Assembly (NCBI GenBank): GCA_016194455.1
Contig: JACQBN010000022.1
Coordinates: forward strand, 1-51,154
DNA length: 51,154 nucleotides
Source of the DNA: Candidatus Kaiserbacteria bacterium
GTDB taxonomy: Bacteria > Patescibacteriota > Minisyncoccia > Phycocordibacterales > Phycocordibacteraceae
Direction of reading: 5' to 3'
A program made the translations under genes and the position numbers. This document shows positions 1,817 through 46,900 of the stretch, in pieces (the stretch's first letter is position 1; every line of letters begins with the position of its first letter). The notes beneath the pieces were generated by a model. It made no database searches. It saw nothing but the letters and a program-made list of their open reading frames with translations, and was not told the origin of the DNA.

Positions 1817-2254
1817 CTAATAGGAGCGCGGGAGCGGCGGAGCGGAATAGCCCGCGAGCCCAAAGGTGGCGGCCACAACATTCACCAAGCCCCAGAGCGA
1901 GATCATTACCGCGAAGCCGATGATGCCCCAGAGGATGAGGCTGTGGCCCACCTTCACTTTCTCCGGATCGCCTCTTGAGAAGATGTAAGCCTGTGCGATG
2001 CCGTAGAGGAAGACGATGAACGCGACCGCGAAGAGAACTGGTACGGCGACGAAGTTGATCAGGTAGAGAATGGTGTTCGCGACGCTACAGATAGCACTGA
2101 AGCAGCCCGCGCCGCCACCGCCGCCCCAGGAGAAACCGAGGAAGCCGCCGCCATTGCTCGAGACGCCGCCCACTACTGTCGTCTCCGCAAAGGTGAGCGC
2201 GGGGGCGAGAAACGCGGCGAATACTGCAGCAGCGCGGGCAAGAGATGTAGTCAT
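1817..2254 (-). CDS. VirB2/TrbC-like membrane protein, paralog 4, with signal peptide
   Basis: Start corrected to MTTSLARAAAVFAAFLAPALTFAET; VPVLFAVAFIVFLYGIAQAYIFSRGDPEKVKVGHSLILWGIIGFAVMISLWGLVNV. Confidence 0.72.
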   Translation of the reverse strand: MTTSLARAAAVFAAFLAPALTFAETTVVGGVSSNGGGFLGFSWGGGGGAGCFSAICSVANTILYLINFVAVPVLFAVAFIVFLYGIAQAYIFSRGDPEKVKVGHSLILWGIIGFAVMISLWGLVNVVAATFGLAGYSAPPLPRSY

Positions 2255-2270
2255 AGAACAAGTATACACA

Positions 2271-2528
2271 TCAGGCGCCGGGCGCGATGCCGAGCGTGGA
2301 TAACAGGATGTTGACGATCCCCCAGACCGAGACGAGCACAACCATGCCGAGAACGCCCCAAACGACGAACTGACGCCCCTCGGAGCGTTTCGCCTCATCG
2401 CCGCCATGCAGGAAGAAGTACTTGAGGACGCCCCAGAGGAAGACGACGAACGCGAGCGCGAAGATGAGGGGCACCACGACCGTGTTGAGCGCCCCGACGA
2501 TGCCATTGGCCCAGGTTGCAAACGTCAT
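2271..2528 (-). CDS. VirB2/TrbC-like small membrane protein, paralog 5
   Basis: VPLIFALAFVVFLWGVLKYFFLHGGDEAKRSEGRQFVVWGVLGMVVLVSVWGIVNILLSTLGI. Confidence 0.72.
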   Translation of the reverse strand: MTFATWANGIVGALNTVVVPLIFALAFVVFLWGVLKYFFLHGGDEAKRSEGRQFVVWGVLGMVVLVSVWGIVNILLSTLGIAPGA

Positions 2529-2529
2529 G

Positions 2530-2943
2530 CTAGCTGCCGGTGGAGAGCGCGCCGACGGTCGCCTGGATGCCCTGCGCGATCGCCTCCGCGCCTAAGAGAA
2601 TAAGCGCGCCGACGATGGTCCAGAGCAGCATCTGTCGCGCCTCGGTGATCTTCCCCGGTTCGCCGCGCGCAGCGACGAACTTGAAGCCGACATAGACCAG
2701 CATCAGGATGACGACGATGGAGCCAATCTCTACGACCAACTGAAGGATACTTGTGAGAAGCGAGGGGAGCGACGCCCCTGAGCCAAGCGGGTTCAGCAGC
2801 GTGACGCCGTTACTGGTCGCGGGTTGTCCTGTTGAGGCGTTGGTTTCGTTCCCGCTTGACTTAGCGGCAGTGGCGACGAGCGGAAGGAAAGAGATTGCGA
2901 GCGGCAGAAAAAGCGATCGCACAAAACTGAGTAAAGAACTCAT
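2530..2943 (-). CDS. Divergent pilin-like membrane protein, paralog 6
   Basis: Signal peptide plus IGSIVVILMLVYVGFKFVAARGEPGKITEARQMLLWTIVGALILLGAEAIAQGI. Confidence 0.65.
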   Translation of the reverse strand: MSSLLSFVRSLFLPLAISFLPLVATAAKSSGNETNASTGQPATSNGVTLLNPLGSGASLPSLLTSILQLVVEIGSIVVILMLVYVGFKFVAARGEPGKITEARQMLLWTIVGALILLGAEAIAQGIQATVGALSTGS

Positions 2944-4247
2944 GGCTGGAGAAGCGACGCGAGCGAGCGCTCGGCCAAAGTGAGCGCTGCGTCAAGCGTG
3001 AGGCGGCCGCTGATCACATCGGTAATCATACCCGAGAAAACGCGGTCAGTCTCGGCGGGCGCTGGGGACAGCCAGCCTCTCGCGTAGAGCGCTTCGGCGT
3101 AGGCAACTGCGGCGATGGGATCATTCGCGGGTGCGCTTGCGAGTTCTCCCACCACCGCGGGGGCAAGCCCGGTCGCTGAGGCTGCGGCGCTCTGCTCGGC
3201 AGAGTTAGTGAGAAGAGCCGCGGCGCTGTAGGCACCGCTCGGGTTTTTTGCCCCGCGCGAGATCATCAGAGCATAGATGAGGCCGTACGCCCTCTTCACG
3301 CTCGCGGTCGCAGGCTGGGGCAAGCGTGCGACGTCGAAGTCTAAGTTCGGATTCGCCTCTCTAAGATACCGCGCCTCGGACGCGTAGCCGAGGTAGAGCG
3401 CGAGGTCACCCGCGAGGAATGCTGTCTGAGAATCCTTGAGCGAGGCGTTCCAGGTGTAGGAGACTTTAGAGGGATCGGCGAATTGGGTGTAGAAGCGCAG
3501 GACCGCCTGCCCGGGCGGCACCCCGCCTCCCGAGCTCTCGCCCAAGTTTGCGCTCATGACTCCGCTCCCCGAGCGCGTCGAGATAGGCACGCCCGTCTGG
3601 AGGAAAAGCGCGGAGAGGATGCCGCGCGCGTTGTGGACATTGCTGTAGGTGCCCATGCCTATAAGGCTGCGGGTAATCTGGCGCGCGGGGGTCAGCGTCG
3701 TGACACCCGGCACGAGCCCGGTCACCGCTTCCCAAGTCGCCGGGGGTGCAGCAACACCGCTCGAGGAGAGGATGGTGCGATTATAGAAGAGTGCGAGCGG
3801 ATCAATAAGGAGCGGGATGCCATAGTAGCCCGCATCGGCGGGCGCGGCGAAGATCTGCGCACCCCCCGCAAAGGTGGAGGCGAAAGTGCGCGCAGAGAGA
3901 GTGGCAAGCGGTGTGGGAGTAATGAACTTCGCGAGCGAGGCCAGATCCTCTTGGGAGGCGAGCACCAAATCTGGAGAAGCGCCGGTTGCGATCGCGGAGG
4001 CGAGGTTGCTGGCGAGCGTCGCCTCATCCATTTGCACATACGAGACGCTCTTGAGTCCCGGCTCGGTCTTCGCGGCAGTCGCGAGTGCGGCGTTGATTCC
4101 CTCCTTCGGTAACGTGCCCCAGATGACGACATTCCCCACCGTGGCGTTGCCGCCGGTCGAAGTGTAGGTCGCGAAGACGAAGAGTCCGATCAAAGCCGCG
4201 AGGCCGAAGACGCCGAGTATGATGCCCTGGAAGAGTGAAATTTTCAT
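2940..4247 (-). CDS. ABC transporter extracellular solute-binding protein (family 1, sugar-binding-like)
   Basis: N-terminal TM anchor; VVIWGTLPKEGINAAL...; overlaps paralog 6 by 4 nt (ATGA type). Confidence 0.75.
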   Translation of the reverse strand: MKISLFQGIILGVFGLAALIGLFVFATYTSTGGNATVGNVVIWGTLPKEGINAALATAAKTEPGLKSVSYVQMDEATLASNLASAIATGASPDLVLASQEDLASLAKFITPTPLATLSARTFASTFAGGAQIFAAPADAGYYGIPLLIDPLALFYNRTILSSSGVAAPPATWEAVTGLVPGVTTLTPARQITRSLIGMGTYSNVHNARGILSALFLQTGVPISTRSGSGVMSANLGESSGGGVPPGQAVLRFYTQFADPSKVSYTWNASLKDSQTAFLAGDLALYLGYASEARYLREANPNLDFDVARLPQPATASVKRAYGLIYALMISRGAKNPSGAYSAAALLTNSAEQSAAASATGLAPAVVGELASAPANDPIAAVAYAEALYARGWLSPAPAETDRVFSGMITDVISGRLTLDAALTLAERSLASLLQP

Positions 4248-4290
4248 AGTTCGATAATACTCACTATGACCCTGAATGAAATTGAATGGG

Positions 4291-4869
4291 TCATGGAGCA
4301 GTGAAAATGATGCCGTAATGGTGCGGCCCCGCGCGGAAGTCCTTGACCTTATGGAATCCGCCGTTGATAAAAAATTCCTCGGCCTTCCGCTCGCTCACAA
4401 CGCGCTCGGGCGCGGGGCCCATGCCGCCGTAGGAGCCGGCCCAGTCGACGAGGAGGAGCTTGCCGGAGGGCTTCATGACGCGCTTCACCTCCGCGAGGAG
4501 CCCGTCGCGGTTCTCAATCTGGAAGAAGACATTCGCGAGGATGACGGCGTCGAGCAAGTGATCGCGCAGCTTCGTTCCGCCCTGTCTCTCGATGTCGCCC
4601 CAGATCGTCTCCACGATGGAGTGATGGCGCTCGTGCACATTGCTCTTCGCGTGCTTCAGCACATCCTCCTGGATATCTACCGCGTAGACCTTGCCGGAAT
4701 GGCCCACGATCGCCGCGGCCGCGCGCGCGTAGTGGCCGCTTCCAGCGCCGAGGTCGCCGACTTTCATTCCCTCGCGCAAGCCCAATTGGAGTACGTTCTC
4801 CCGCGGGTCGCTAAAGTGCGCGCTCATAGTCCTGAGCAGGTCGAAGGGCTCATACCTATAAAATAACAC
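4291..4869 (-). CDS. Class I SAM-dependent methyltransferase (start may be ATG 4827)
   Basis: VGDLGAGSGHYARAAAAIVGHSGKVYAVDIQEDVLKHAK SAM-binding motif. Confidence 0.8.
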   Translation of the reverse strand: MLFYRYEPFDLLRTMSAHFSDPRENVLQLGLREGMKVGDLGAGSGHYARAAAAIVGHSGKVYAVDIQEDVLKHAKSNVHERHHSIVETIWGDIERQGGTKLRDHLLDAVILANVFFQIENRDGLLAEVKRVMKPSGKLLLVDWAGSYGGMGPAPERVVSERKAEEFFINGGFHKVKDFRAGPHHYGIIFTAP

Positions 4870-4892
4870 GGGCTGCCAGGAGGCAGCCCGTG
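4867..4892 (-). terminator. Intrinsic terminator
   Basis: Perfect stem CACGGGCTGCC/GGCAGCCCGTG followed on the minus strand by TTATTTTATA. Confidence 0.75.
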
Positions 4893-4912
4893 AATCAACA
4901 AGCCCATAAGAT

Positions 4913-5482
4913 TTAGAATTCCCCCTTCAGGAAGTTGCGCCGAGTTATCGTGGGTCCCTTATCCTCCGATTTCTTCGGCGTAAGCTCCGCCATCGTGGGT
5001 CCGCGAGGGCGGAATGCGATGCCACCGCGGCCGAGGAAGGCGTTTGACTGCACCAAGAGGAATGTTCCCTTCGGGAATTCGGGCAGAGGTTCTACGATCC
5101 GGGCACTGAAGCCGAGCTTGAAGAGCTTACCTGCGAGATTGACCGCTGCTGTTTCGCGGACGATCGGGTCTTGTACCACCAAGGCCCTCACGTTGAGCGG
5201 CAGGTCCGGGTGCTGCGCGAGGAATGCGGGATCAAACGTTCCGAAGACCGTTGTCATGTCCGACAGGACCACTTGGTGTGTCGGGCCGGCATCAATCGTC
5301 ATGAAAGTCCCGAGGCCGGTGTATTCTTTCACCACCTCAAGCAGGACTTTCTGCACTGCGGGGCTCGCGACTGCGAAGAATGCGTGCCCCTTGTCACCGA
5401 AGGTTCCGCGCCAGATGTGGCTTCCGATAATCCCGGCCATAATTCCAACGAAGAAAATGAGCGCTGCGATAGGGAACCCCAT
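4913..5482 (-). CDS. Hypothetical protein with N-terminal TM anchor
   Basis: ORF MGFPIAALIFFVGIMAGIIGSHIW...; terminator directly downstream. Confidence 0.65.
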   Translation of the reverse strand: MGFPIAALIFFVGIMAGIIGSHIWRGTFGDKGHAFFAVASPAVQKVLLEVVKEYTGLGTFMTIDAGPTHQVVLSDMTTVFGTFDPAFLAQHPDLPLNVRALVVQDPIVRETAAVNLAGKLFKLGFSARIVEPLPEFPKGTFLLVQSNAFLGRGGIAFRPRGPTMAELTPKKSEDKGPTITRRNFLKGEF

Positions 5483-5565
5483 CTCTAACCTTTCCGGCCC
5501 ATAGGCCTTTTCTTGTGTCCGGAATCATCATACTACGTTCTTGCGCACTACGCAAGGCCGCGCCC

Positions 5566-5931
5566 CTAGCGCTCGGGCTTGAGTGGTTTGACTTCGCCAA
5601 TCTCGATGTGGCGGTTGCGATAGATCTTCACTTCAAACTCCCTCCCCTTGGTGACATTGAAGATCAGACTCTCGGCGTCGCCCTGCTCTGTCATCGGCCC
5701 CACGCGCATCTCGTTCGCGTCCTCTGGCTCCGAGGCCCGGCTCTCAGCGAAATCCGCAATCAGCGCGCGGAATTCTTCCTCGGAAAGGCTCGGGTCCGTG
5801 AGCGCGTGCACCAACTCGAACGCCTCGGGATCGAAGCGCAGCTGCTCGAGCATCTCCTCCGACGGCTCGTGCCGCTCCTCCGGGCGCGCCGTCGCCTTGG
5901 TTCCTTCGCGGTCTCCGCCAAAGCCAAACAT
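5566..5931 (-). CDS. Small acidic hypothetical protein (tandem paralog B)
   Basis: TACAGT -10 seven nt before ATG; similar layout to 5937-6326. Confidence 0.6.
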   Translation of the reverse strand: MFGFGGDREGTKATARPEERHEPSEEMLEQLRFDPEAFELVHALTDPSLSEEEFRALIADFAESRASEPEDANEMRVGPMTEQGDAESLIFNVTKGREFEVKIYRNRHIEIGEVKPLKPER

Positions 5932-5936
5932 TGGAG

Positions 5937-6326
5937 CTACTGTACCACGCCCGTGAGCTCGACGCGGCCGTTGTCAAATATCCGCACGATGACGCTGCGC
6001 CCCGATCCCGCAGCAAGCGTAAATTCCTCTTTGAACTTCTCTCCGATCCGCTCCTCAACAGGGATTGCCGATTCGTGTGTCGCGTTATGCGTAGCGATTT
6101 TCTGCAGGAAAGCGTCGTTTGTGAGAGGCTCGTTCTGCTGCAACACTCCCACAAGCTTGGCCGCCTCCGGCGAAAATTGGTGGAGCTTCAACATATGCGC
6201 GGTCTCTGGCCCGCGCTCCAAGTCATCTCGTTCTTCCTCCCGCTCTGCCGCCGTATCGAGCTCCTCCTGCGAAACGATCGAGTGCGGCGCTCGCGCCACT
6301 CTCCCCTGACCAAGAAATTCCAACAT
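5937..6326 (-). CDS. Small acidic hypothetical protein (tandem paralog A)
   Basis: TAGAAT -10 six nt before ATG; shared FxPEAxxLV...L...F...IA and C-terminal V-I-hydrophobic-x-N-x-R/H-h-E pattern. Confidence 0.6.
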   Translation of the reverse strand: MLEFLGQGRVARAPHSIVSQEELDTAAEREEERDDLERGPETAHMLKLHQFSPEAAKLVGVLQQNEPLTNDAFLQKIATHNATHESAIPVEERIGEKFKEEFTLAAGSGRSVIVRIFDNGRVELTGVVQ

Positions 6327-6364
6327 GCCGAGATTCTACCACGCCCGTAGGCAGAAAGAAAAAG

Positions 6365-6380
6365 GCCGCCCGAGGGCGGC
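6365..6380 (-). terminator. Intrinsic terminator
   Basis: GCCGCCctcGGGCGGC-type stem followed on the minus strand by CTTTTTCTTTCT. Confidence 0.7.
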
Positions 6381-6397
6381 TTGGGAATCAGCTAGCA

Positions 6398-6712
6398 TTA
6401 CTTGAAGAGGCGCGGATCCCCATATGAACACGTCAAGGCACCTGGTTTTTTCACATTTGTCCGTGCATTGATGATTTTGCGAAGAACGTACCGAACTATT
6501 TCCAGCGCGTCTCCTTTTGTCCGATTCCGCGAATGGTAGTTCTCGTATTCTTTCAAAAAGCCAACGAGAAGAACGCAGACCGTTTCGGCCCTGACATTTC
6601 CTTTCCCATGGCCGGCAAGGGCTTCTACTAAGCGCTTTTGTACCGCATCAACTCTCAGGTCACGCTTGTTCTCTTCTTTAAGGTAGGGGTAGCCGGGGCT
6701 AAACTTCGACAT
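6398..6712 (-). CDS. Hypothetical protein
   Basis: 104-aa ORF ending just before a terminator. Confidence 0.55.
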   Translation of the reverse strand: MSKFSPGYPYLKEENKRDLRVDAVQKRLVEALAGHGKGNVRAETVCVLLVGFLKEYENYHSRNRTKGDALEIVRYVLRKIINARTNVKKPGALTCSYGDPRLFK

Positions 6713-6723
6713 TGGGATCTCCG

Positions 6724-6752
6724 TTGCGTGATTCCGTCGGTGAGCATACTAT
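6724..6752 (+). promoter_or_regulatory. Promoter of Cys-rich small protein gene
   Basis: TTGCGT-17 nt-TACTAT. Confidence 0.45.
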
Positions 6753-6786
6753 AGAGGCGGAGACGTGGCAATACGAAAGGCGTGTC

Positions 6787-7110
6787 ATGAACAACGAGAA
6801 ATCCTGCGGTTGCGCGGAGTCCTGCGGCTGTAATTGCGGCGAGAAGTTCGAGGCGGAGCTTAAGCGTCTGCTCGAGCAGATTGCGCGGGAGATCGGCCGC
6901 CCTACCATCGACTATCTGGAGACAAAGATCTTCCGCGTGTGGGTGCAGACAAAACACTATCACGACGCGCACGGATACGGCAGCTTCGCCTTCGAGGCTC
7001 CGACGCTGCTTGCGGCCGCGAAGAAATGTCTCGCGCATGCCCGCCAGGCATGCCCGAACGCGGGCTGCAGTCGCCACTGCCCCGAGTACGACAACACCGA
7101 TTTTTTCTAA
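6787..7110 (+). CDS. Small Cys-rich hypothetical protein
   Basis: Start corrected to MNNEKSCGCAESCGCNCGEKFE...; terminator immediately downstream. Confidence 0.65.
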   Translation: MNNEKSCGCAESCGCNCGEKFEAELKRLLEQIAREIGRPTIDYLETKIFRVWVQTKHYHDAHGYGSFAFEAPTLLAAAKKCLAHARQACPNAGCSRHCPEYDNTDFF

Positions 7111-7118
7111 AATAAACG

Positions 7119-7146
7119 CGGGCCGCCCTCGGGCGGCCCGTTTTCC
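7119..7146 (+). terminator. Intrinsic terminator
   Basis: CGGGCCGCC-CTCG-GGCGGCCCG then TTTTCC. Confidence 0.8.
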
Positions 7147-7186
7147 TTCTTTCAACTGCGCATCGTAGTGATGCCCGAGAAAGCAA

Positions 7187-7209
7187 AAGAGCCCGCGCCA
7201 CGGGCTCTT
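7187..7209 (-). terminator. Intrinsic terminator
   Basis: AAGAGCCCG-loop-CGGGCTCTT then TTGCTTTC on the minus strand. Confidence 0.65.
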
Positions 7210-7219
7210 CATTTTTTGA

Positions 7220-7444
7220 TCACGCTTTTCTTCTGCGCTTTCTCGATCGATACGGCATTCGTCGCGCCCCGAAGACCTTCGCGCGGGAGATGTGTCCGCT
7301 ACCTCGCAGATACTGGTGGGTGTGGAGCAGAATCGCGTCGCCAGTGGCGTTGATGACGTCTTCTTGCGTGCTTCCGCCATAGACGACGCCGAGGTCGACG
7401 CGCAGGCGCAACGTCTCTACAACAAGCGGCTTCTTTTTCGGCAT
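7220..7444 (-). CDS. Small basic hypothetical protein
   Basis: 74-aa ORF with terminator downstream. Confidence 0.5.
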   Translation of the reverse strand: MPKKKPLVVETLRLRVDLGVVYGGSTQEDVINATGDAILLHTHQYLRGSGHISRAKVFGARRMPYRSRKRRRKA

Positions 7445-7531
7445 GTGAGGAGTTCCCTTCCTATATCTCCGCCCAAGATGGTACTCCTAAAATCTATATT
7501 GGCTAGCTCGGCACCATGACGACAATATTTT

Positions 7532-8068: not shown

Positions 8069-8069
8069 A

Positions 8070-12081: not shown

Positions 12082-12114
12082 TGTGGATAGTGTACCAAAT
12101 TTCCGCCTATTATG

Positions 12115-12540: not shown

Positions 12541-12656
12541 TTCCTTCCCTTGTGCTAGAGTCGGCGAGTCAGCGTGTGGGAGAAGTAGGAAGGCGCTAAC
12601 CCTTGAACCGAAAGGCTCAAGTACCCTTCGCGAAAATCCGCACGGCTTTTATATTC

Positions 12657-13778
12657 ATGAGTGAAGAAGTGAAGGAAAAGAAGGTACCGCTGCCGGCCAT
12701 CGTGCTTGACCCGAACCACTCGATGGCTGCGCTCGTGGCGGGCATCCCGACGCCACCCAAGACCGGTGATTTGCTTGAGGGCACCATCATCGCGATCAAT
12801 CGCGGGCGCGTCTATATTGACCTGCCGCCTTTTGGCACCGGGCTCATCTACGGCCGCGAGTACCTCAACGCCGCGGACGTGCTCCGCAAGGCGAACCCCG
12901 GCGATTCCATCAGCGCGAAGGTCGTGGACCCCGCCGGCCGCGAGGGCTACATCGAGCTGTCGCTTAAGGAGGCGCGCCAGGCGGCCATCTGGGGCGAGGC
13001 CGAACAGGCGATTGTTGCGCAGACCTCGTACACTCTCATTGTCGAGGAGGCGAACAAGGGCGGGCTTATCCTCTCGTGGCAGGGCATCCCTGGCTTTCTC
13101 CCAGCCTCGCAGCTCGCGAAGGAGCATTACCCGCGCGTCGCCGACGGCGATAAGGAAAAGATCCTCGGCGAACTCATGAAGCTTGTGGGCCACCCGCTCA
13201 CGGTCCGGATCATCACCGCGGACGCGAAAGAGGGCAAGCTTATTTTCTCGGAGAGGAGCGGCAATGAGGAAGAGGAGAAGACGGCGCTCATTGATAAGTA
13301 CCAGGTGGGTGACGTGCTTGAGGGTGAAGTTACCGGCATCGTAGACTTTGGCGTCTTCGTGCGGGTCGAGCCCGGGCTCGAGGGGCTAGTGCATATCAGC
13401 GAGCTCGATTGGGGCCTCGTGGAGGATCCGCACGCGCTCTTCGTTGTGGGCGATACGGTGAAAGTCAAGGTGATTGAGGTCAAAGACGACAAGATCTCCC
13501 TCTCCGTCAAAGCGCTCCAGGAGAATCCCTGGCACACGGCCGGGGAGCGCTACGCCAAAGACCAAGAAGTGCCGGGCGTCATCATCAAGTACAACAAGCA
13601 CGGCGCGCTTGCGTCCATCGAAGAGGGTGTAGCGGGCCTCGTGCACGTCTCCGAGTTCGCCTCGCCGCAAGAGCTCCGCGATACCCTCGAGCTCGGTAAA
13701 ACCTACCCCTTTAAGATTACGCTCTTCGAACCGAAAGAGCAGCGCATGACGCTGTCCTACGTTGGCAAGAGGAAATAA
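12657..13778 (+). CDS. rpsA: 30S ribosomal protein S1-like, multiple S1 domains
   Basis: Start corrected to MSEEVKEKK; repeated S1 motifs such as GDVLEGEVTGIVDFGVFVRVEPGLEGLVHISEL. Confidence 0.88.
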   Translation: MSEEVKEKKVPLPAIVLDPNHSMAALVAGIPTPPKTGDLLEGTIIAINRGRVYIDLPPFGTGLIYGREYLNAADVLRKANPGDSISAKVVDPAGREGYIELSLKEARQAAIWGEAEQAIVAQTSYTLIVEEANKGGLILSWQGIPGFLPASQLAKEHYPRVADGDKEKILGELMKLVGHPLTVRIITADAKEGKLIFSERSGNEEEEKTALIDKYQVGDVLEGEVTGIVDFGVFVRVEPGLEGLVHISELDWGLVEDPHALFVVGDTVKVKVIEVKDDKISLSVKALQENPWHTAGERYAKDQEVPGVIIKYNKHGALASIEEGVAGLVHVSEFASPQELRDTLELGKTYPFKITLFEPKEQRMTLSYVGKRK

Positions 13779-14383: not shown

Positions 14384-14389
14384 ATGATA
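14384..14389 (-). promoter_or_regulatory. Extended -10 box of pth, 6 nt before ATG
   Basis: Minus strand TGCTATCAT ccgcgc ATG. Confidence 0.55.
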
Positions 14390-14426: not shown

Positions 14427-14432
14427 TACAAT
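14427..14432 (+). promoter_or_regulatory. -10 box of lepB, 8 nt before ATG
   Basis: TTGCAT-16 nt-TACAAT gcctccac ATG. Confidence 0.6.
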
Positions 14433-16310: not shown

Positions 16311-16347
16311 TGCTCCCCCGCCAGGGGCGTGCTAGAGTCTTCTCCAC

Positions 16348-20068: not shown

Positions 20069-20074
20069 TATACT
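20069..20074 (+). promoter_or_regulatory. -10 box of trxB, 7 nt before ATG
   Basis: TATACT cgtaaat ATG. Confidence 0.6.
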
Positions 20075-22111: not shown

Positions 22112-22119
22112 AACGAAAG

Positions 22120-22206
22120 CGGAGAGGGTGGGATTTGAACCCACGAGGAGCTTTCGCCCCTGCCGGTTTTCGAAACCGGTGCATTCGACCACTCTGCCAC
22201 CTCTCC
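22120..22206 (-). tRNA. tRNA-Ser (CGA)
   Basis: Class II tRNA; anticodon loop TTCGAAA; GGAGAGG/CCTCTCC acceptor; no CCA. Confidence 0.95.
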
Positions 22207-22227
22207 AGTCATTGCACCCTAGCATTT

Positions 22228-22255
22228 TTGAAATCCGAGCGAAAGATGCTAGATT
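22228..22255 (+). promoter_or_regulatory. tRNA-Glu promoter
   Basis: TTGAAA-16 nt-TAGATT (TGCTAGATT), 8 nt before mature 5' end. Confidence 0.6.
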
Positions 22256-22263: not shown

Positions 22264-22335
22264 GGCCCTATCGTCTAATGGTTAGGACACCGGCTTTTCA
22301 AGCCGACAATACGGGTTCGATTCCCGTTAGGGCTA
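22264..22335 (+). tRNA. tRNA-Glu (TTC)
   Basis: GGCCCTATCGTCTAATGGTTAGGACACCGGCTTTTCAAGCCGACAATACGGGTTCGATTCCCGTTAGGGCTA. Confidence 0.96.
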
Positions 22336-22373
22336 CTTGAGCGGGCGAGAGAAAAAAGGTATTCTGCGCACGC

Positions 22374-22446
22374 GCGCGGTTAGCTCAGTTGGTAGAGCAC
22401 TTCCTTGACGTGGATGGGGTCGGGGGTTCAAGTCCCTCACCGCGCA
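22374..22446 (+). tRNA. tRNA-Val (GAC)
   Basis: GCGCGGTTAGCTCAGTTGGTAGAGCACTTCCTTGACGTGGATG...GGTTCAAGTCCCTCACCGCGCA; one T-T mismatch in the anticodon stem. Confidence 0.92.
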
Positions 22447-22449
22447 CCG

Positions 22450-23214: not shown

Positions 23215-24074
23215 AGTACGACCAGCATTTGACCACGAGAGGCTGGGGCGACTACGAACTGCTTGATTCCGGCGAGAACATGAAGCTGGAGCGCTTCGGC
23301 AGCGTTGTGCTTGCGCGCCCGGAGACAGAGGCGCTTTGGGCGAAGCGGCAGCTCGAGTTGTGGGAGAAGGCGCATGCGGAATTCAAGTTTGAAAAAGGTA
23401 AGGGCAAATGGCATTTGAAAAAAGAAGTTCCGGAATCATGGGAACTAACACGCGGGCCATTGCATTTTCTCGCACGGCTTACGAGCTTCAAGCACACCGG
23501 CATTTTCCCCGAGCAAGAGCCGAACTGGGTCTGGATTAAAGACCGCGTCAAACAACTTGGCAAACCGAACGTGCTGAATCTTTTCGGCTATACCGGGATC
23601 GCCTCGCTCTCCGCTGCGCACCCGGGTGCCTTCGTGACGCATGTGGACGCCTCAAAACAATCACTCGACTGGGCCCACGAGAACGCCCGGCTCTCCGGTA
23701 TTGGTGAGAACGCCATCCGTTGGATCCTGGACGATGCGTTTGCCTTCGCGAAGCGCGAAGTGCGGCGCAGCGCAAAATATGAAGGCATCGTTCTTGATCC
23801 GCCCGCGTTTGGCCGCGGCGCCAAGGGCGAGGTCTGGCATATTGAGGAGCATTTACCGAAGTTGCTCGCTGCGCTTCGCGAACTCCTCAGTGACACTCCC
23901 GGTTCTTTCTTTCTAGTAAGCGGCTACGCGGCCGGCTACGCCTCGCTCTCGTTTGTCCAGGCAGTTGAAAGTACCTTTGGGAAAATTGATGGCGAATCGG
24001 GGGAACTGCGTATTGCCGAAGCAAACTCCGACCGAGCTATCCCCGCCGGCGTCTACGTCCGGTTCATAAGGTAG
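23211..24074 (+). CDS. Class I SAM-dependent (rRNA) methyltransferase, RlmI-like
   Basis: VLNLFGYTGIASLSAAHPGAFVTHVDASKQSLDWAHENARL; VLDPPAFGRG. Confidence 0.82.
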   Translation: MKYDQHLTTRGWGDYELLDSGENMKLERFGSVVLARPETEALWAKRQLELWEKAHAEFKFEKGKGKWHLKKEVPESWELTRGPLHFLARLTSFKHTGIFPEQEPNWVWIKDRVKQLGKPNVLNLFGYTGIASLSAAHPGAFVTHVDASKQSLDWAHENARLSGIGENAIRWILDDAFAFAKREVRRSAKYEGIVLDPPAFGRGAKGEVWHIEEHLPKLLAALRELLSDTPGSFFLVSGYAAGYASLSFVQAVESTFGKIDGESGELRIAEANSDRAIPAGVYVRFIR

Positions 24075-24083
24075 AATCAGCGC

Positions 24084-26858: not shown

Positions 26859-26934
26859 GTGTTTATTGTACCTGAATTGCGTTCCTCTTTCTTTTCTGGT
26901 AAAATATTTTCGGACCTGTAAGGGAGAATGAAAA

Positions 26935-28005: not shown

Positions 28006-29223
28006 TTAATACGACTTGAGATGGCGGGCGCGGTCGTGGACGCGGATCTTTTCCAGTGACTTCGCTTCGATCTGCCGGATGCGTTCGCGGGTGACGCCAA
28101 ACTCACGACCCACCTCCTCGAGCGTGTGGTAGATGCCGTCGAGGAGGCCGTGCCGCATTTCCAAAATCTTGCGTTCCTTGGGCGAGAGATCGCCGAGGAT
28201 GCCGCGCACTTGCTCCGCGAGAATGCGCTCCGAGGATTCTTGCACTGGGCTCGGGATCTTGTCGTCGGCGATGAAGTCGCCGAGCGTGCTTTTTTCATCG
28301 TCTTCCGAGCCCACTGGGTTCTCCAGCGAGAGCGTGTCCTGGTTAATCTTTTCTATTTGGTAAATCTTCTCCGGCTCCACCCCCATCTCGACCGCGATCT
28401 CCTCGGGCTGCGGATCGCGCCCGAGCACTTGCGCGAGACGCCGCGAGACTTGCTTATATTTAGCGATCGTCTCCACCATGTGGACAGGGATGCGTATGGT
28501 GCGCGACTGGTCGGCGAGCGCTCGCGTGATGGCCTGGCGGATCCACCAGGTCGCATAGGTTGAAAACTTATAGCCCTTCTTCCAATCGAACTTATCCACC
28601 GCGCGGAAGAGACCGAGATTTCCTTCTTGAATCAAATCAAGGAGCGTGAGGTCAGGGCTGCGGCCGACATATTTCTTCGCAATAGAGACGACGAGGCGCA
28701 GGTTGGAGCGAGCGAGGATGTTACGCGCCTCGGCGTCCCCTTTTTCTATCCGCTTCGCGAGCTCGCGCTCCTCGGCGGCGACGAGGAGCGGATACTGCCC
28801 GATCTCGCGGAGATAGATCTGGATGGAGTCATAGCCGGTTGATTGGCGGCTCTTGATATTGCGGGTCGCGAGATACTCGTCCGCATGATCCTCGAGCATG
28901 CCGCCCTCAAGCACATCCACCCCCGCGGTCGCAAAGCGCTCGTAGAGCGACTCGAGGAAGTCCACATCATCTTCCACATGTGGGAAGGATTTGAGAATTT
29001 CGTTGTAGGTGATATAGCCGCGCTCCTTGCCGCGCGCGATGAGCTGATCCGCCGAGAGTGCGCGAGAGGCCGCGGCCTTGGCGCGCGCGCCCTTCGCCGC
29101 GATGCGGACTATCTGTTTCATCTTCGCCCGGCGCCCGCGCTTGCCGAGCGCACGCTTATGCGCCGACTTTTTTATCGGCTTCTTTGCGCGGAGTTTTGCT
29201 TTCGGTAAGTGTCGTGTCGCCAT
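28006..29223 (-). CDS. rpoD: RNA polymerase primary sigma factor (sigma70 family)
   Basis: [49 protein letters not shown]; region 4 [19 protein letters not shown]. Confidence 0.95.
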
Positions 29224-29237
29224 TGGTAAAAATAAAA

Positions 29238-30911
29238 TTAAAGGGCTGCGAGACGTTTTGAGAGCGCGGCACATGCCGCCTCGGCACGCCGAAGCGCGGC
29301 CGCATCTGCCGCAGTCTCGGCTCTCCGGAGATCGCCCACCGCTTCCTGATACGCCTCGCGGATAACCGCTACTTCAAAGGCGTGGAGAAGCTCCTCCGCC
29401 GCATCCTCTCCCGGGTCTTCGCCGAAGGCTTTCTCGGCGGCGAAGAGCGCTGATTCGGGAGCGCCTGGAGCGAGCGGGGCTTCAGTAATACGAGCATACT
29501 CTGCCGCGACCCGCGCGGCAAGTGCGGTACGGGGATACGCTGCGGCAACTGCTCGCAGCTGGAGCTCGCGGGAGGCGCGCTCGCTCTGCACATCCTTCTT
29601 TACAACTGCCGCCTCCTCGCCCGCTTCGGTGGGCTCGCGCGGTGCCCGCCTAAGCGCCTCCCGCACCGCGCCCTCGGAGAGACTCAAGGCGCGCGCGGCG
29701 TTCTTGACGAAGTGTTCGCGTTCCATCGGGCTCTTGATCGCGGCGATTAGGGGGAGCACGATGCGCTCGGCGAGCGTCACGAGGCGGTGAGGGTCCCGCT
29801 CCCGCTCGGCCAGAGCTGCGAGAAAGAAGTCAGCGACCGGCTTCGCCTCCTTGATGCACGCCGTAAAAGCTTGCGAATCCTCACTGATGAGATCGGCCGG
29901 GTCCTTCCCCGAGGGGAGGCGCGCAGCTTTGACCCGCAGTCCGTTTGCGAGCGCGAGCTCTGCGCTCTTGGCGCTCGCGGCGAGCCCGGCGGCGTCGGCG
30001 TCAAGACAAAGCAGCAGATTCTCACTGTAACGCTTCATGAGCGCGAGATGCTTCGCGGTGAGCGCGGTGCCCGAGAGCGCGACCGCGTTCGCGAAGCCCA
30101 CCTGGTGCGCCAAAAGAGCGTCCATTTGCCCCTCCACCAAGAGCGTGAAGCCGCGCTGGCGTATCGCATCTTTCGCCTTATCCATACCGAAGAGAATCTC
30201 GGACTTATGGTAGAGCTCGGTCTCGGGAGAGTTCAGATATTTTGCCGGCTCGTCCGTACTCAAAGCGCGACCGGTGAAGGCGACGACCCGACCCGCGCCG
30301 TCTCTGATCGGAAACATCAACCGATTGCGGAAGCGGTCGTAGAAAGTGCCGGGCTTCCCGTCTGCCTCCTTGATAAGCCCCGCGGCGGTGAGCTCGGGGA
30401 GAGTAAAACTCTCCGCACTCAAGGTTTCAAGCAGCGTTCGCCAGGTCTCCGGCGCATAGCCGAGCTGCCAGGCGGAAATGGTTTCCGCGGTAAGCCCGCG
30501 CTGCTTCGCGTACGCGAGGGCCTGCGTGCCGGGGAGCTGCCCCGCGTAGAACTGGGCCGCGCGCGCGAGCGCCTCGCGAAGACGCTCGGTACGCGAGGAT
30601 GCCTCGCGGCCAACCTTGCCGCCAACATATTTGATCTCCACTCCCGCCTTCTCCGCTAAAATTTTTAACGCGCCCTTGAAGTCAACGCCCTCCGCCTTCT
30701 CAATGAAAGAGAAAATGTCGCCGCCCTCGCCGCAGCCGAAGCAATGATAGCTCCCGCGCTCGAGGCTGACATGGAAGGAGGGCGTCTTCTCCTTATGGAA
30801 CGGGCAGAGGCCCACAAGCGACTTTCCCGCCCGTTTCAACTTCACATACGGCGCCACCACGTCCTGGATGGTTAGCCGTTCTTTGATCTGTTCCACCGTA
30901 TCCCCCGCCAT
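29238..30911 (-). CDS. dnaG: DNA primase
   Basis: Start corrected to [29 protein letters not shown]; zinc finger [13 protein letters not shown]...[30 protein letters not shown]. Confidence 0.94.
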
Positions 30912-30918: not shown

Positions 30919-30924
30919 ATTCTA
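30919..30924 (-). promoter_or_regulatory. -10 box of dnaG, 7 nt before ATG
   Basis: Minus strand TAGAAT cggagca ATG. Confidence 0.6.
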
Positions 30925-40015: not shown

Positions 40016-40038
40016 AGGGCGATTCTAACACCCGCAGC

Positions 40039-40389: not shown

Positions 40390-40438
40390 GTGCCGGCGAC
40401 TATAGCAGAAGCCGCTCAATTTTGCTAGAGTGGAGGAA

Positions 40439-42379: not shown

Positions 42380-42427
42380 ACCCCCGTGCAGCCGTCAGCG
42401 TTTCGAAGAACTTTGGTGCGGTAAGAA

Positions 42428-43600
42428 CTACCTTGATTGACTCAATATTTTCTTCCAACGATAATGCGTGGGGTCGGGATCGTTCTTTGATTCCGGAGCG
42501 AACTCATATATATTGGTTTCCGATTGTTTTACCGCCCGCGCTGGACTATAGAGTGCATATTTTGTATCGCGCAGTTCAGGGGAGTGAAGGTACGTCATCA
42601 TCGGATCGGCATGAGATGCGCCGTATATAAAAAGGATTGGTCCGTCGAAACGTCTCGCGCGAGTCAACTTGTCTATCCCGCGCGCAACCGAGACGTTTCG
42701 ATAATCAAGGAAATCGAAGGGGATCGTATACGGCGAGGACGACCCTGATGCAGAACTCAAGACCGAAGGAGCAAGCGGCGCGGTCGCTGCGAGCCCAGCT
42801 ACACCGGCAAGAAATTGTCTGCGGCTCGGCTTGGGAACTAATTCCGGATTCTTCTCTACGAAATCTGGTTGGTGTTTTTCAAAGCGGCGGCGTTCATCAG
42901 TCTTTAATTGATTCCACGCGAGAGTTCCAGCGCTCGCTCCCACTGCAGTTGCCCACACGCCGAGCAGACCGATATCAAAGGCGCCCAGATCCTCCGAGAG
43001 CCGGTCATGGCCCCCCGCCCACTCGAGAATAAGTTCTCGGTCTTTATCGGCTCCCGAGTGGGGGTCGATCGTTATCACCAGCTTCTGATGTTTTTTCGCT
43101 AACTGTTCCATCTCTCGAAAAAAAACAATTGGTGGATTATCGAGAATAGATTTATGAACCCATCCCTCGGCTTCTCCTTCCGTAGAACCCGCGGTGTGCA
43201 GTCGATCTTTTACTTTTTGGAGAAATTCCAAGTCATACACTCCAGCGATTTCAGGCGCGCCTTCGAGAACAACCGCGCCGGCAGAAGCAATTGCCTCTTC
43301 GATACGCTTTCTCTGGAAGAGAAGCGTTTCGGGAGTATGAACGACGCCAAGGAAATGAATTGGTTGGTCGTTGATTTCGCCTGTGCGTTCCTTCAGTGGG
43401 AAACTCTCCTGTCCCCATGCTTTGAGCTCGAGATCGTGAGGTGAGACTCCGGCGCTGTTTTGCATCTGACCGTATTGAACTGCCGTGTCAGCATCGAGGC
43501 GTGCTGACTCTTCATCGACCTGGCGGGCGATCGCTACTAAAGGGGATTCGGCATTCTGCTCGAATTTCGAAACATGCCAATTTCGTTGTCTTTCCATCAT
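42428..43600 (-). CDS. TraB/TIKI-like protein with internal Tat-like hydrophobic segment
   Basis: HFLGVVHTPETLLFQRKRIEEAIASAGAVVLEGAPE and IYGASHADPMMTYL (two GxxH); internal SRRQFLAGVAGLAATAPLAPSVL. Confidence 0.55.
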   Translation of the reverse strand: MMERQRNWHVSKFEQNAESPLVAIARQVDEESARLDADTAVQYGQMQNSAGVSPHDLELKAWGQESFPLKERTGEINDQPIHFLGVVHTPETLLFQRKRIEEAIASAGAVVLEGAPEIAGVYDLEFLQKVKDRLHTAGSTEGEAEGWVHKSILDNPPIVFFREMEQLAKKHQKLVITIDPHSGADKDRELILEWAGGHDRLSEDLGAFDIGLLGVWATAVGASAGTLAWNQLKTDERRRFEKHQPDFVEKNPELVPKPSRRQFLAGVAGLAATAPLAPSVLSSASGSSSPYTIPFDFLDYRNVSVARGIDKLTRARRFDGPILFIYGASHADPMMTYLHSPELRDTKYALYSPARAVKQSETNIYEFAPESKNDPDPTHYRWKKILSQSR

Positions 43601-43601
43601 A

Positions 43602-45824
43602 TTACTTCGCGACCTGTACCGCTTCGTCGAACTTGACGGAGAGGAGCTTGCTGATGCCGTCGCCGCCCATGGTGATGCCGTAGAGGATGCCGGCGCGGCT
43701 CATCGTCTCGCGGTTGTGCGTGATCACGATGAGCTGGGATTTCTTGGCGAGCCCCTCGAGCATATCGCCGTAGCGGCGGCTGTTCGCCTCGTCAAGCGCG
43801 GCGTCGGTTTCATCCAATATCAAAAACGGTGGTGGGTTCACTTGCGACATCGCAAAAATGAGTGCGATCGAGGTCAAGGCCCGCTCGCCGCCCGAGAGCT
43901 GCATTATGGATTGCACTTTCTTCCTCGGCAGGTGGACCGAGATCTCGATGCCCGGGCGTTGCTTCTCTTTTGGTAGTTCGTCGTTAGACTCTTCAGCATC
44001 TCCGAGGTCGTCGACCTCGTCGACTTCGGGCTCTTCGAGCGTGAGACGGGCGCCGCCCCCGCCAAACATCAAGGCAAAATATTCGCCGAAAGAGGCGTTC
44101 ACCTTCGCGAGGCCGTCCGCGAAGTTCTTCGCGAGTTCGGCATCAAGATCCTCAACAAGGGAGCGCAGCCCCGCCGCGGACTTCGCGAGGTCGTCGAGCT
44201 CGCGGGAAAGAAATTCTTCGCGTTTCGCGACCTCCTCATGCTCGCGGCGGATGTCGTCCCCCGCGCCGCCCGCCTCCTCGAGTCGGATCTTGAGCCGTTC
44301 CTGCTGGCGCTTCCTATCCTCTTGCATCTTCCGCTCCTCCGCAGGCGGCGAAGAAAGTGGCAGATACGAGAGGGCTTCGCGGCCTGCTGCGCTAAGCGCC
44401 TCGGCCTTATCGCGCTCTAGCTCCTCGGCGAGGAGTGTGAGTTCGCGGCCGCGCGTCTCAAACGCCGTGATCTCGTTCTCCGCCTTCGCTTTGCCTTGTG
44501 CAAAATCCAGAATGCGGCGGCGCAGCTCCCTGCCTGCTTCATCATGCGCGGTCAGTGCCTCCCGCGAGCGCATGAGAGAGCTCTTCGCCTTTTCCTCCTG
44601 TTTCGCGAGCTCCGCGTCCTTGGAGAGGAAGTCCGTGCGTTCGTTCTCGAGTGCGTAGACTGCGCGCTCCTCGTCTGCGAGGAGATCATCGCCGGGGGCG
44701 GCGAAGCGTTCGACGAAAGCGCGAACGGCGCTTCGGACCGCGGCGAGTGCCGCGGCGATTCCGTCTGGCGTGGTCGCACTCCTCGACTGCTTCTCCACTT
44801 CATCGCGCAGCGTCGCGAGGTCCTCGCGCGGCACTTTGGCATACGGCTCGCGCGCGACCTCCGCGCTCCGGCGCTTCGCAGCCGCGAGGCCGCCCTCTAC
44901 TCTCCCCAGCTCGCGCGCGAGCTTCGCGCGCTCGGTCGCGGCGTGTTCGATCTCGCTCTCGAGAGTCCGCACCACAGCAAGGCGCTTGCCGCCCTCGGCG
45001 TCGGTGGTCGCCCGCTCCTCGATGCCCGCGAGTTCGCGCGAGACCGCAGCGAGACGCTCCGCCGCTGTCGCCTTCGCGCTTGCGGCTTTTTCTTTCTCAC
45101 GCGCAAGGTACGCATCTTCTATCGCAAAGTAGGTCTGGCAGATTGCGATGAGATTTTTCCGGAGCTCGTCTGCGCGCTCGAGCTTGGCCACCTGAGTCGC
45201 GAGGAATTTAAGATGAGGCGCGAGCTCGCGCCGGAGTGAATTGACCTGACCGATATTCTCTTCGGTCTTATCCAGCTTCCGCAGCGCTTCCTGCTTTTTG
45301 AACTCGTAGAGGGTTAGCCCGAGCGCGTTCTCGAGCATCTCGCGGCGCTCGCGTGGATTCGCAATCAATATGCGATCGGCTTCGCCCTGGGAAATGATGT
45401 GGTGGCCCGTCTCGCCGATGTTGCCGCCCGAGAGGAGCTCCTCGACATCGCGAAGCCGCACGCGCGAGCCATTGATGGAATAATCGCTCGCCCCGTCGCG
45501 GAAGACTTCGCGTGCGATGGATATCTCATCAAAATCTATTTTGAAAGCGCGGTGTCCGCCAGCTGGCGGATTATCGAAGACGACCGCGACCGCCGCGCGA
45601 TTCGCCCGCGGCAGCGTGTGCGTACCGGAGAATATGAGGTCCTCCGCGCGCTTGCCGCGCATCGACTTCATCGACTGCTCGCCGAGCGCAAAGCGGAACG
45701 CCTCGGCGACGTTACTCTTACCCGATCCATTCGGCCCCACGATCGCGGTCACTGCGGAGGAGAAGTCCAAGACTGTTTTCTTGGCGAAAGATTTGAACCC
45801 AGCGATTTCAAGCCGCTTCAGCAT
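43602..45824 (-). CDS. smc: SMC-family chromosome segregation ATPase, short form
   Basis: MLKRLEIAGFKSFAKKTVLDFSSAVTAIVGPNGSGKSNVAEA; LSGGERALTSIALIFAMSQVNPPPFLILDETDAALDEAN. Confidence 0.9.
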   Translation of the reverse strand: MLKRLEIAGFKSFAKKTVLDFSSAVTAIVGPNGSGKSNVAEAFRFALGEQSMKSMRGKRAEDLIFSGTHTLPRANRAAVAVVFDNPPAGGHRAFKIDFDEISIAREVFRDGASDYSINGSRVRLRDVEELLSGGNIGETGHHIISQGEADRILIANPRERREMLENALGLTLYEFKKQEALRKLDKTEENIGQVNSLRRELAPHLKFLATQVAKLERADELRKNLIAICQTYFAIEDAYLAREKEKAASAKATAAERLAAVSRELAGIEERATTDAEGGKRLAVVRTLESEIEHAATERAKLARELGRVEGGLAAAKRRSAEVAREPYAKVPREDLATLRDEVEKQSRSATTPDGIAAALAAVRSAVRAFVERFAAPGDDLLADEERAVYALENERTDFLSKDAELAKQEEKAKSSLMRSREALTAHDEAGRELRRRILDFAQGKAKAENEITAFETRGRELTLLAEELERDKAEALSAAGREALSYLPLSSPPAEERKMQEDRKRQQERLKIRLEEAGGAGDDIRREHEEVAKREEFLSRELDDLAKSAAGLRSLVEDLDAELAKNFADGLAKVNASFGEYFALMFGGGGARLTLEEPEVDEVDDLGDAEESNDELPKEKQRPGIEISVHLPRKKVQSIMQLSGGERALTSIALIFAMSQVNPPPFLILDETDAALDEANSRRYGDMLEGLAKKSQLIVITHNRETMSRAGILYGITMGGDGISKLLSVKFDEAVQVAK
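45555..45570. repeat. 16-nt perfect palindrome in smc, identical to the core of the 38463-38492 terminator
   Basis: TCCGCCAGCTGGCGGA at both loci. Confidence 0.8.
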
Positions 45825-45830
45825 ACCTAG

Positions 45831-45836
45831 AGTATA
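45831..45836 (-). promoter_or_regulatory. -10 box of smc, 6 nt before ATG
   Basis: Minus strand TATACT ctaggt ATG in an 18-nt intergenic gap. Confidence 0.6.
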
Positions 45837-45842
45837 CCGTGC

Positions 45843-46574
45843 CTACGACGTCTGGCTTGCAGTCGTAAGAAATATTTTTTCGAGCTCGAAGCCCTTCGCG
45901 AGCTCCGCGGCACCTTTTGTCAAGGCGATCTCGCCCTGCTGGAGCACGTACGCGCGGTCCGCGATCCCGAGTACCGATTTAATACTGTGCTCGACCACCA
46001 GAATCGCGATGTGCCGGAGGGTGTTGATTTCCTTAATGAGCGCGAATACCTCCTTGACGATCTTGGGCGAGAGGCCGAGTGAGGGCTCGTCAAGGAGAAG
46101 CACGCGCGGGTCGGCGACGAGCCCTCGCGCGATCGTGAGCATCTGTTGTTGGCCGCCCGAGAGCAATCCCGCTTTCGCCAAGAGCTTCTCGCGGAGCGCG
46201 GGGAATATCTTGAGCACCTCTTCGATATTCTTCGAGGCATCGGCGCGATTGGGGAGCGCGTAGCCGCCAAGCTCGAGGTTCTCGAGCACGGTGAGGTGCT
46301 TGAAAACTTGGCGACCCTGCGGGACGTACGCGATGCCGCGCCGGACCATCTCGTAGGGCACGGGAGCAATGCGCTCTTCGTGGAAATGCACGGAGCCGTG
46401 CGCAAGCGGCACAAGGCCGAAGAGTGCCTTCAGTATCGTCGACTTCCCCGCCCCGTTGGGGCCCATCAAGGCGACGATCTCGCCCTCGTCAATCTCTACC
46501 GATGCGTTCTTCAGCGCTTGCACGCCGCCGTAGAAGACGTTTGCATCGTTGAGTTTAAGCAGCGTTTCTTTCAT
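45843..46574 (-). CDS. livF: Branched-chain amino acid ABC transporter ATP-binding protein LivF-like
   Basis: ALMGPNGAGKSTILKALFGL; LLSGGQQQMLTIARGLVADPRVLLLDEPSLGLSP. Confidence 0.9.
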   Translation of the reverse strand: MKETLLKLNDANVFYGGVQALKNASVEIDEGEIVALMGPNGAGKSTILKALFGLVPLAHGSVHFHEERIAPVPYEMVRRGIAYVPQGRQVFKHLTVLENLELGGYALPNRADASKNIEEVLKIFPALREKLLAKAGLLSGGQQQMLTIARGLVADPRVLLLDEPSLGLSPKIVKEVFALIKEINTLRHIAILVVEHSIKSVLGIADRAYVLQQGEIALTKGAAELAKGFELEKIFLTTASQTS

Positions 46575-46614
46575 TACAAGAAATTATAGCAACTCGAGAA
46601 ACTCCTCGATATGG

Positions 46615-46869
46615 CTATACGAGAACGCTATGGAAGCTGGTCTCTTGCGGATCAAGTGCGCGGATAATTGCTCGACTCTTTCCCTCCTCAAGGCACAACG
46701 CAATAACCTCGCGGGCGTTTGCGAGAGCTTGGTCAAGCGTCTTGCCCTGGGTAACACAGCCGGGGAGGAGCGGGCACTGCACGATATAGAAATTATCCTC
46801 CCCTTTCGTGACAAGGGCCGGGTATTGCTGCGCTTTATGCCTCATACTTTTTCGGGTCGCCTTTTTCAT
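46615..46869 (-). CDS. HicB-like antitoxin domain protein (orphan)
   Basis: YPALVTKGEDNFYIVQCPLLPGCVTQGKTLDQALANAREVIALCLEE. Confidence 0.8.
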   Translation of the reverse strand: MKKATRKSMRHKAQQYPALVTKGEDNFYIVQCPLLPGCVTQGKTLDQALANAREVIALCLEEGKSRAIIRALDPQETSFHSVLV

Positions 46870-46900
46870 GTGTTCCAGTATACCATGTCTGTTTTGCGCT

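Follow-up and report, generated by a model that had tools for sequence, protein, structure and literature searches.

Probable start-codon promoters point to leaderless mRNAs and coupling, without Shine-Dalgarno pairing, as the basis of translation initiation in a Kaiserbacteria-like family of Patescibacteria

Shine-Dalgarno (SD) pairing is the textbook way in which bacteria begin proteins, with leaderless translation commonly regarded as a side route. Which of the two serves the genes of the window studied here, a 51,154-nt stretch of DNA from the genome of a Candidatus Kaiserbacteria bacterium, an ultra-small and uncultured organism? A preliminary description of the window had proposed pervasive leaderless-type promoters, in the form of TANNNT boxes, often TGnTANNNT, placed 6-9 nt before start codons. 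All 18 boxes that it listed (18/18) were found with exactly the hexamer and gap given, the gap being the number of nucleotides between box and start codon. They are collected in Table 1 with the boxes before tRNA genes and two relevant protein genes.

Table 1. Putative promoter boxes and selected protein genes in the window
Feature	Sequence	Positions (strand)	Gap and downstream gene, or remark
-10 box	TATACT	2261..2266 (-)	gap 6 to ATG 2254
-10 box	TATTAT	4254..4259 (-)	gap 6 to ATG 4247; under the weight-matrix threshold and outside the automated box set
extended -10	TGGTACAGT	5939..5944 (-)	gap 7 to ATG 5931
extended -10	TGGTAGAAT	6333..6338 (-)	gap 6 to ATG 6326
extended -10	TGGTACACT	12089..12094 (-)	gap 7 to ATG 12081
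extended -10	TGCTATCAT	14384..14389 (-)	gap 6 to pth ATG 14377; pth divergent from lepB
-10 box	TACAAT	14427..14432 (+)	gap 8 to lepB ATG 14441; lepB is a Peptidase_S26 match
extended -10	TGCTAGAGT	16333..16338 (+)	gap 9 to rpsU (bS21) ATG 16348; Ribosomal_S21 match 23.7 bits, under the 27-bit cut-off
extended -10	TGATATACT	20069..20074 (+)	gap 7 to ATG 20082 (named trxB in the preliminary description)
-10 box	TAGAAT	24072..24077 (+)	gap 6 to ATG 24084
-10 box	TACAAT	26865..26870 (-)	gap 6 to ATG 26858
-10 box	TAGAAT	30919..30924 (-)	gap 7 to dnaG ATG 30911
extended -10	TGTTAGAAT	40022..40027 (-)	gap 6 to khpA ATG 40015
extended -10	TGCTATAGT	40399..40404 (-)	gap 9 to rpsP ATG 40389
extended -10	TGCTAGAGT	40426..40431 (+)	gap 7 to rnr ATG 40439
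-10 box	TATACT	45831..45836 (-)	gap 6 to SMC-like ATG 45824
extended -10	TGCTATAAT	46583..46588 (-)	gap 8 to ABC ATPase ATG 46574
-10 box	TATACT	46877..46882 (-)	gap 7 to HicB-like ATG 46869
extended -10	TGTTATATT	364..369 (-)	8 nt before tRNA-Lys mature 5' end
extended -10	TGCTAGGGT	22216..22221 (-)	9 nt before tRNA-Ser mature 5' end
extended -10	TGCTAGATT	22250..22255 (+)	8 nt before tRNA-Glu mature 5' end
-10 box	TATTCT	22360..22365 (+)	8 nt before tRNA-Val mature 5' end
bS1-like protein		12759..13757 (+)	matches rpsA model positions 17-341
primary sigma factor		28006..29274 (-)	regions 1.1, 1.2, 2, 3, 4; expected reader of TGnTATAAT boxes

The preliminary description had corrected start codons before searching for boxes, and the pattern could in principle be due to chance or to that selective correction. 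We therefore note that our starts were picked by coding potential alone, blind to upstream sequence, with a simple gene finder whose start calls are imperfect. The sample comprised the window and 14 other stretches, 252 kb of the 604 kb (42%) in this incomplete, 83%-complete MAG. Within it, TANNNT stood at gaps 6-9 before 60/181 start ATGs (33%) versus 2.5% of other ATGs, and 200 dinucleotide-preserving shuffles gave 9.0 +/- 2.9 boxes with a maximum of 17. The extended form was seen 29 times at these gaps, compared to 0.41 expected from shuffles (maximum 3). A chance or selection effect is refuted by the blind starts together with the orthologues described below, and we give it practically no credence.

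The -10 peak that the preliminary description predicted before start codons is sharp and lies at gap 6, where TANNNT occurs at 17.7% of start ATGs versus 0.6% of other ATGs. Counted against internal in-frame ATGs in the 252-kb sample, it stands at gap 6 before 32/182 start ATGs versus 4/789. In the same test, E. coli gave 0% at gap 6 and a Deinococcus deserti plasmid 20%. Over gaps 5-9 the box precedes 33% of start ATGs versus 2.4% of internal in-frame ATGs, and TGnTANNNT precedes 16% versus 0.13%. The boxes also respect the reading frame: 75/214 genes have one at an in-frame ATG candidate near the gene start, versus 4/214 in the +1 frame and 2/214 in the +2 frame. Box-bearing starts are almost all ATG (75 ATG, 4 GTG), with TTG at decoy level. 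Near box-bearing genes, 37 of the 43 extended boxes within 150 nt sit at the start codon; these genes were chosen with a similar matrix, and what the count usefully shows is the difference from sites further upstream.

Box frequency depends on gene context. Boxes precede 68% of divergent genes and 60% of co-directional genes spaced by 6-40 nt, but only 17% of genes that overlap the upstream gene or follow it within 5 nt, as expected if leaderless promoters lie mainly at genes needing their own promoter. (These values replace a table made with cruder starts, in which the operon contrast was weaker.) One divergent pair is rnr and rpsP, whose start codons are 49 nt apart. The box is kept in 28/28 rnr orthologues (61/61 orthologue starts in a second, automated set), in 26/29 rpsP orthologues and in 40/40 orthologue sequences of the SMC-like gene, and an SD was found in 0/97 orthologue starts of these three genes. 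The khpA box is present in just 29/59 orthologue starts, which counts against the leaderless reading. Together, enrichment, frames, orthologues and shuffles strongly support the proposal that putative leaderless-type promoters are pervasive here.

Could the box instead be a translation signal, such as an AT-rich ribosome-binding or low-structure element of the Bacteroidetes kind? A short AT-rich element before starts would also be detectable by position in this 58% GC genome, and a bS1-like protein is present. The gap, however, is sharply confined to 6-9 nt, and the box is rare before overlapping operon genes, though these need translation too. Moreover, the positions not used in selecting boxes spell a promoter: TG, T (0.48) and A (0.68) emerge, giving TGnTATAAT, and the aligned boxes carry a faint TTG at 17-nt spacing upstream, which is the -35 position. 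The same box also precedes tRNA genes, which are not translated; here it peaks 8-9 nt before the mature 5' end, and 10/16 tRNA genes of this genome have it at gap 6-10, compared to 11.5% of random sites within 25 nt. A translation signal is thus a very unlikely explanation. Loss of RNase P as the cause of tRNA promoters at the mature end was rejected, as RNase P RNA and RnpA are both present.

We regard the boxes as probable sigma-A promoters, from which the +1 would fall on the A of the ATG or 1-3 nt before it. The window encodes a primary sigma factor in which regions 2, 3 and 4 are intact, and the consensus agrees with sigma-70/sigma-A recognition. The earlier statement that most boxes lack a convincing -35 is correct for the extended form (z 0.6) and almost correct for the remaining boxes (z 1.9), although a weak TTG at 17 nt does show once the boxes are aligned. 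With a -10 placed about 6-9 nt ahead of the start codon and a start that is almost only AUG, these genes have the sequence features of leaderless mRNAs; a -10 box right at the gene start means that the mRNA would have no leader. If the +1 distance is fixed, gaps of 7-9 leave 1-3 leader bases, a point against strict leaderlessness.

The statement that most of the boxed genes lack an SD proved correct. SD core 5-mers were found at 3.3% of starts versus 4.6% of background ATGs in this genome, and at 2.9% versus 3.9% in relatives, so that neither shows enrichment. A likely reason lies in the ribosome: the 3' end of the 16S rRNA gene reads GGAACATATCC rather than GGATCACCTCC, which removes the anti-SD and keeps helix 45. 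The CCUCC core was absent from the 16S rRNA of 29/29 family members examined (this genome and 28 further genes), and the anti-SD is also missing in a wider clade beyond the family. Neither CCUCC nor SD enrichment, the two marks of SD-led initiation, is thus found in this genome.

The preliminary description had cited genes 21464, 31020 and 38916 as carrying ordinary SDs and suggested that two initiation modes may coexist, leaderless and SD-led, a mixture known from Deinococcus and mycobacteria. These three genes do carry SD-like strings, and anti-SD-bearing relatives show both signals. The second mode did not survive comparison with background, where such motifs occur just as often, and the 16S rRNA lacks the CCUCC to pair with them. 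SD motifs are also rarer at starts in the anti-SD-less clade (19/696) than in anti-SD-bearing members of the class (20/260; p 0.0014) or in a phylum sample (39/385; p 7e-7). Coexistence is therefore unlikely. An altered anti-SD matched by a new SD sequence was also considered, since the changed tail, GGA(A/T)CA(TA/AT)TCC, is itself conserved within the family. Upstream of starts, no core 4- or 5-mer complementary to this tail is in excess; the core set occurs at 0.044 of all starts, 0.018 of box-less starts and 0.048 of background. The sole raised 5-mer, GTTCC (x3.2), is complementary to the helix-45-proximal GGAAC and concerns only three genes. We reject a new SD matching the new tail as most improbable.

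Fewer than half of the genes bear a recognisable box, a point against the leaderless reading. Boxes are scarce where a gene overlaps or abuts the one upstream (17% versus 60-68%), which makes coupling more likely than SD as the second mode, although coupling can account for only part of the box-less genes. We consider it highly probable that sigma-A -10 boxes at start codons give leaderless mRNAs, that coupling operates in operons and that there is no general SD pairing. Sigma-A would need little contribution from a -35 to recognise the box, and transcripts would begin with the A of the start codon or 1-3 nt earlier. The 5'-terminal AUG would then be recognised by ribosomes together with initiator tRNA, the route described for leaderless mRNAs elsewhere, and box-less operon genes would depend for translation on coupling to the gene upstream. 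No general role would remain for SD:anti-SD pairing. As judged from genome sequence, our best reading is that this Kaiserbacteria-like family of Patescibacteria starts translation on leaderless mRNAs and by coupling, without SD pairing.

Some translation factors deserve mention. Protein bS1 is normally required by leadered mRNAs and not by leaderless ones. Loss of bS1 was considered and rejected, given the bS1-like gene in the window; its retention is a point against the leaderless reading. IF3_C has no match in this 83%-complete genome but has one in 36/40 family genomes, and in this genus the matches mostly cover just the first 45-63 of 86 positions.

With moderate confidence, we extend the proposal to the sister families in the class: SD pairing may have been abandoned altogether, leaderless promoters having spread first through the phylum before the anti-SD was lost. 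Recognition of a 5'-AUG and coupling would be the only general routes, and tRNA transcription would also begin at the mature end or directly beside it. A strict rule that loss of the anti-SD equals leaderlessness was rejected for the class, since anti-SD-bearing genomes also show the leaderless signal and three anti-SD-less genomes outside the main clade (G227, G251 and G250) show little of it. Another genome, G204, is SD-enriched although its 16S gene, which sits on a very small contig, lacks the anti-SD; this is possibly a case of mis-binning.

In this large uncultured group the supposed side route appears to be the principal one, the ribosome has lost its partner sequence for SD pairing, and bacteria seem able to give up textbook initiation. 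This poses a testable question: are 5'-AUG recognition and coupling enough to sustain a bacterial ribosome? There is also a practical side: in such genomes, start codons would be wrongly placed by gene finders trained on SD sites and put right by a model that expects a -10 box at the start codon.

The separate parts of this arrangement are known elsewhere; their combination was not found in the literature compared. Nanoarchaeum equitans has leaderless tRNAs, whose promoters likewise place the start of transcription at the mature 5' end or close to it, but the present family has RNase P RNA (99/105 genomes) and RnpA (85/105). TGnTATAAT, sigma region 3 and a weak -35 are shared with ordinary extended -10 promoters of sigma-70/sigma-A, and only the placement at start codons and tRNA 5' ends is unusual here. 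Leaderless mRNAs are known in Deinococcus deserti and mycobacteria (de Groot 2014, Cortes 2013, as cited in PMC9581028; Shell 2015, PMC4633059), where the -10 box likewise ends about 6 nt before the ATG; the D. deserti plasmid shows the same gap-6 peak. That plasmid keeps an SD signal (15% versus 3% background, 20 starts), whereas here SD signal and anti-SD are both gone and, with SD at background, the genome is not of the mixed Deinococcus/actinobacterial type. Flavobacteriia and other Bacteroidetes also have mRNAs without SD; as described in the accessible text of PMC6847099, mRNA structure and a Kozak-like context tune initiation there and ribosomes keep the anti-SD, in contrast to the start-codon promoters and lost anti-SD of the present family. 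SD-scarce CPR genomes share the 16S tail without CCUCC and the small number of SD genes, and our genome falls into class iv of PMC10783764 (no CCUCC, few SD genes), though by a different, non-thermodynamic method. As far as its accessible text goes, that study lists 1-2 genomes per CPR group and does not treat promoters or leaderless starts, whereas the present analysis covers a whole family and a wider clade, with promoter evidence.

The window is contig C26 of a 31-contig, 604-kb genome (completeness 83%), and its SMC-like protein shares at most 74% identity with proteins of Candidatus Kaiserbacteria and other Paceibacteria/Parcubacteria (Patescibacteria, CPR). We analyzed start codons in 252 kb, comprising the window and 14 further stretches (42% of the genome), in which a purpose-written codon-usage gene finder called 256 genes. 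Starts were set at the ATG lying furthest 5' near the limit of coding potential, blind to upstream sequence; this avoids the start correction used in the preliminary description. The loci analyzed come from metagenome-assembled genomes. All 18 leaderless-type -10 boxes (TANNNT) listed there, with gaps of 6-9 nt to the start codon, were found in place and at the gap reported. In the 252-kb sample, TANNNT was most frequent at gap 6 (17.6% of start ATGs vs 0.5% of internal ATGs), with a shoulder out to gap 9 and about background levels at gaps 12 to 26. The proposed comparison with shuffled controls also bore out the claim: 60 boxes were observed vs 9.0 ± 2.9 in 200 dinucleotide-preserving shuffles, and 29 extended boxes (TGnTANNNT) vs 0.41. 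GC content is 55-62%, and therefore AT-rich boxes are unexpected by chance. In-frame candidate ATGs carried a box in 75 of 214 genes vs 4 and 2 for decoys in the other two frames. The same test gave no signal at gap 6 in E. coli and 20% at gap 6 in a Deinococcus deserti plasmid.

Alignment of boxes picked by TANNNT alone revealed T (0.48) and A (0.68) at free positions, TG upstream (0.55 and 0.68), together with a faint T-T-G at 17-nt spacing. By sequence, the box is a predicted promoter of the form TTG-N17-TATAAT in which the -10 is extended. Near box-bearing genes (within 150 nt), 43 extended boxes were counted, of which 37 lie at the start codon. The window also encodes a primary sigma factor with regions 1.1 to 4, including the conserved segments RIPVHMVET and RERIRQIE; in sigma-70, such regions recognize both the extended -10 and the -35.

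The box is conserved in relatives. All 40 SMC-like sequences have one at gap 5-9 and none has a Shine-Dalgarno (SD) motif, while the remaining upstream sequence is mostly divergent. The divergent rnr/rpsP pair fits both boxes into the 49 nt separating the start codons; the rnr box is present in 28/28 relatives and the rpsP box in 26/29, with no SD. Domain matches begin at residues 1-16 in SMC, dnaG, khpA, rpsP, rpsU, lepB and HicB, and this N-terminal homology independently supports several starts. With a relaxed weight matrix (threshold passed by 5% of decoys), 40% of genes carry a box: 28/41 divergent genes, 26/43 co-directional genes at 6-40 nt spacing, 22/55 at >40 nt, and 8/48 that overlap or lie ≤5 nt from the upstream neighbor. 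Such a distribution would be expected if genes had promoters of their own and were otherwise coupled inside operons.

The promoter reading also draws on tRNA genes, where box frequency is maximal 8-9 nt 5' of the mature end, in the window and at other tRNA genes of this genome (10/16 first or single tRNAs; 9/22 in family loci). At that distance the precursor leader would be 1-2 nt, requiring little RNase P trimming. Many genomes of the family have an RNase P RNA that fits the bacterial class A model badly, and our genome's copy (G000:C31:5457-5850) reaches 90.6 bits, below the 100-bit cut-off, which suggests a divergent or insert-bearing RNA.

tRNA genes of the window with a -10 box 8-9 nt 5' of the mature end
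Gene	Position	Strand
tRNA-Lys	282-355	-
tRNA-Ser	22119-22206	-
tRNA-Glu	22264-22336	+
tRNA-Val	22374-22448	+

Core SD 5-mers are not enriched at starts in this genome (3.3% vs 4.6% of other ATGs) or in 41 related contigs (2.9% vs 3.9%). The SD-like strings of genes 21464, 31020 and 38916, previously called ordinary SDs, are therefore within chance. The corresponding values are 10.1% vs 2.6% in the phylum sample and 7.7% vs 3.2% in anti-SD-bearing class members, the class comparison resting on small samples per genome. A short bS1-like protein (12600-13778, + strand; rpsA model positions 17-341 of 516) is retained although the SD signal is absent. IF3 normally acts against leaderless mRNAs. In our genus its C-terminal domain matches the 86-position profile only over about positions 1 to 45-63, and no match was found in our incomplete genome (83% complete).

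The absent SD signal is probably explained by the 16S rRNA gene, which ends in ...GGGGAACCTGCTCGTGGAACATATCCGAAATGG (E. coli counterpart, ...GGTTGGATCACCTCCTTA) and lacks the anti-SD. Helix 45 is retained, its stem letters altered yet paired. CCUCC is absent from all 29 family 16S genes counted, ours included; outside this count, the 16S of locus L134 (genome G131, a family bin) carries CCUCC. That bin holds two 16S genes, one with an intact anti-SD and a model score far above any family member, and the CCUCC-bearing gene is probably contamination. Canonical CACCUCC is missing in 11/30 class 16S genes, and CCUCC is kept in 26/28 from the phylum sample. On the 16S tree, at least six changes of anti-SD state are required; the family and five sister genomes form a clade (16 rows) in which the anti-SD is missing throughout. 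In genome G204 (locus L169), an anti-SD-less 16S lies on a very small contig, yet starts are SD-enriched; mis-binning is possible. The family tail after helix 45 is conserved as GGA(A/T)CA(TA/AT)TCC (L060/L050:6786-6830 and 28 family loci). A short complementary GGA(A) frequently comes next and might allow a small hairpin to form. A new SD matching this tail was considered and rejected, as core-complementary motifs are not enriched upstream of starts.

The leaderless signal is present across the phylum, anti-SD-bearing genomes included, and leaderless promoters therefore probably came first; the anti-SD would have been lost later, in a lineage no longer needing SD pairing. The fit is imperfect, with three anti-SD-less genomes outside the main clade showing little leaderless signal (few genes sampled). 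We found no literature joining leaderless starts with anti-SD loss in Patescibacteria/CPR/Parcubacteria; subscription papers and preprints fell outside the search, and priority is unproven. A GeneMarkS-2 prediction cited in PMC9581028 is that 21.6% of bacterial species have leaderless transcription, and PMC10783764 lists genomes of Campbellbacteria, Wolfebacteria, Absconditabacteria and Peregrinibacteria in which CCUCC loss goes with SD scarcity.
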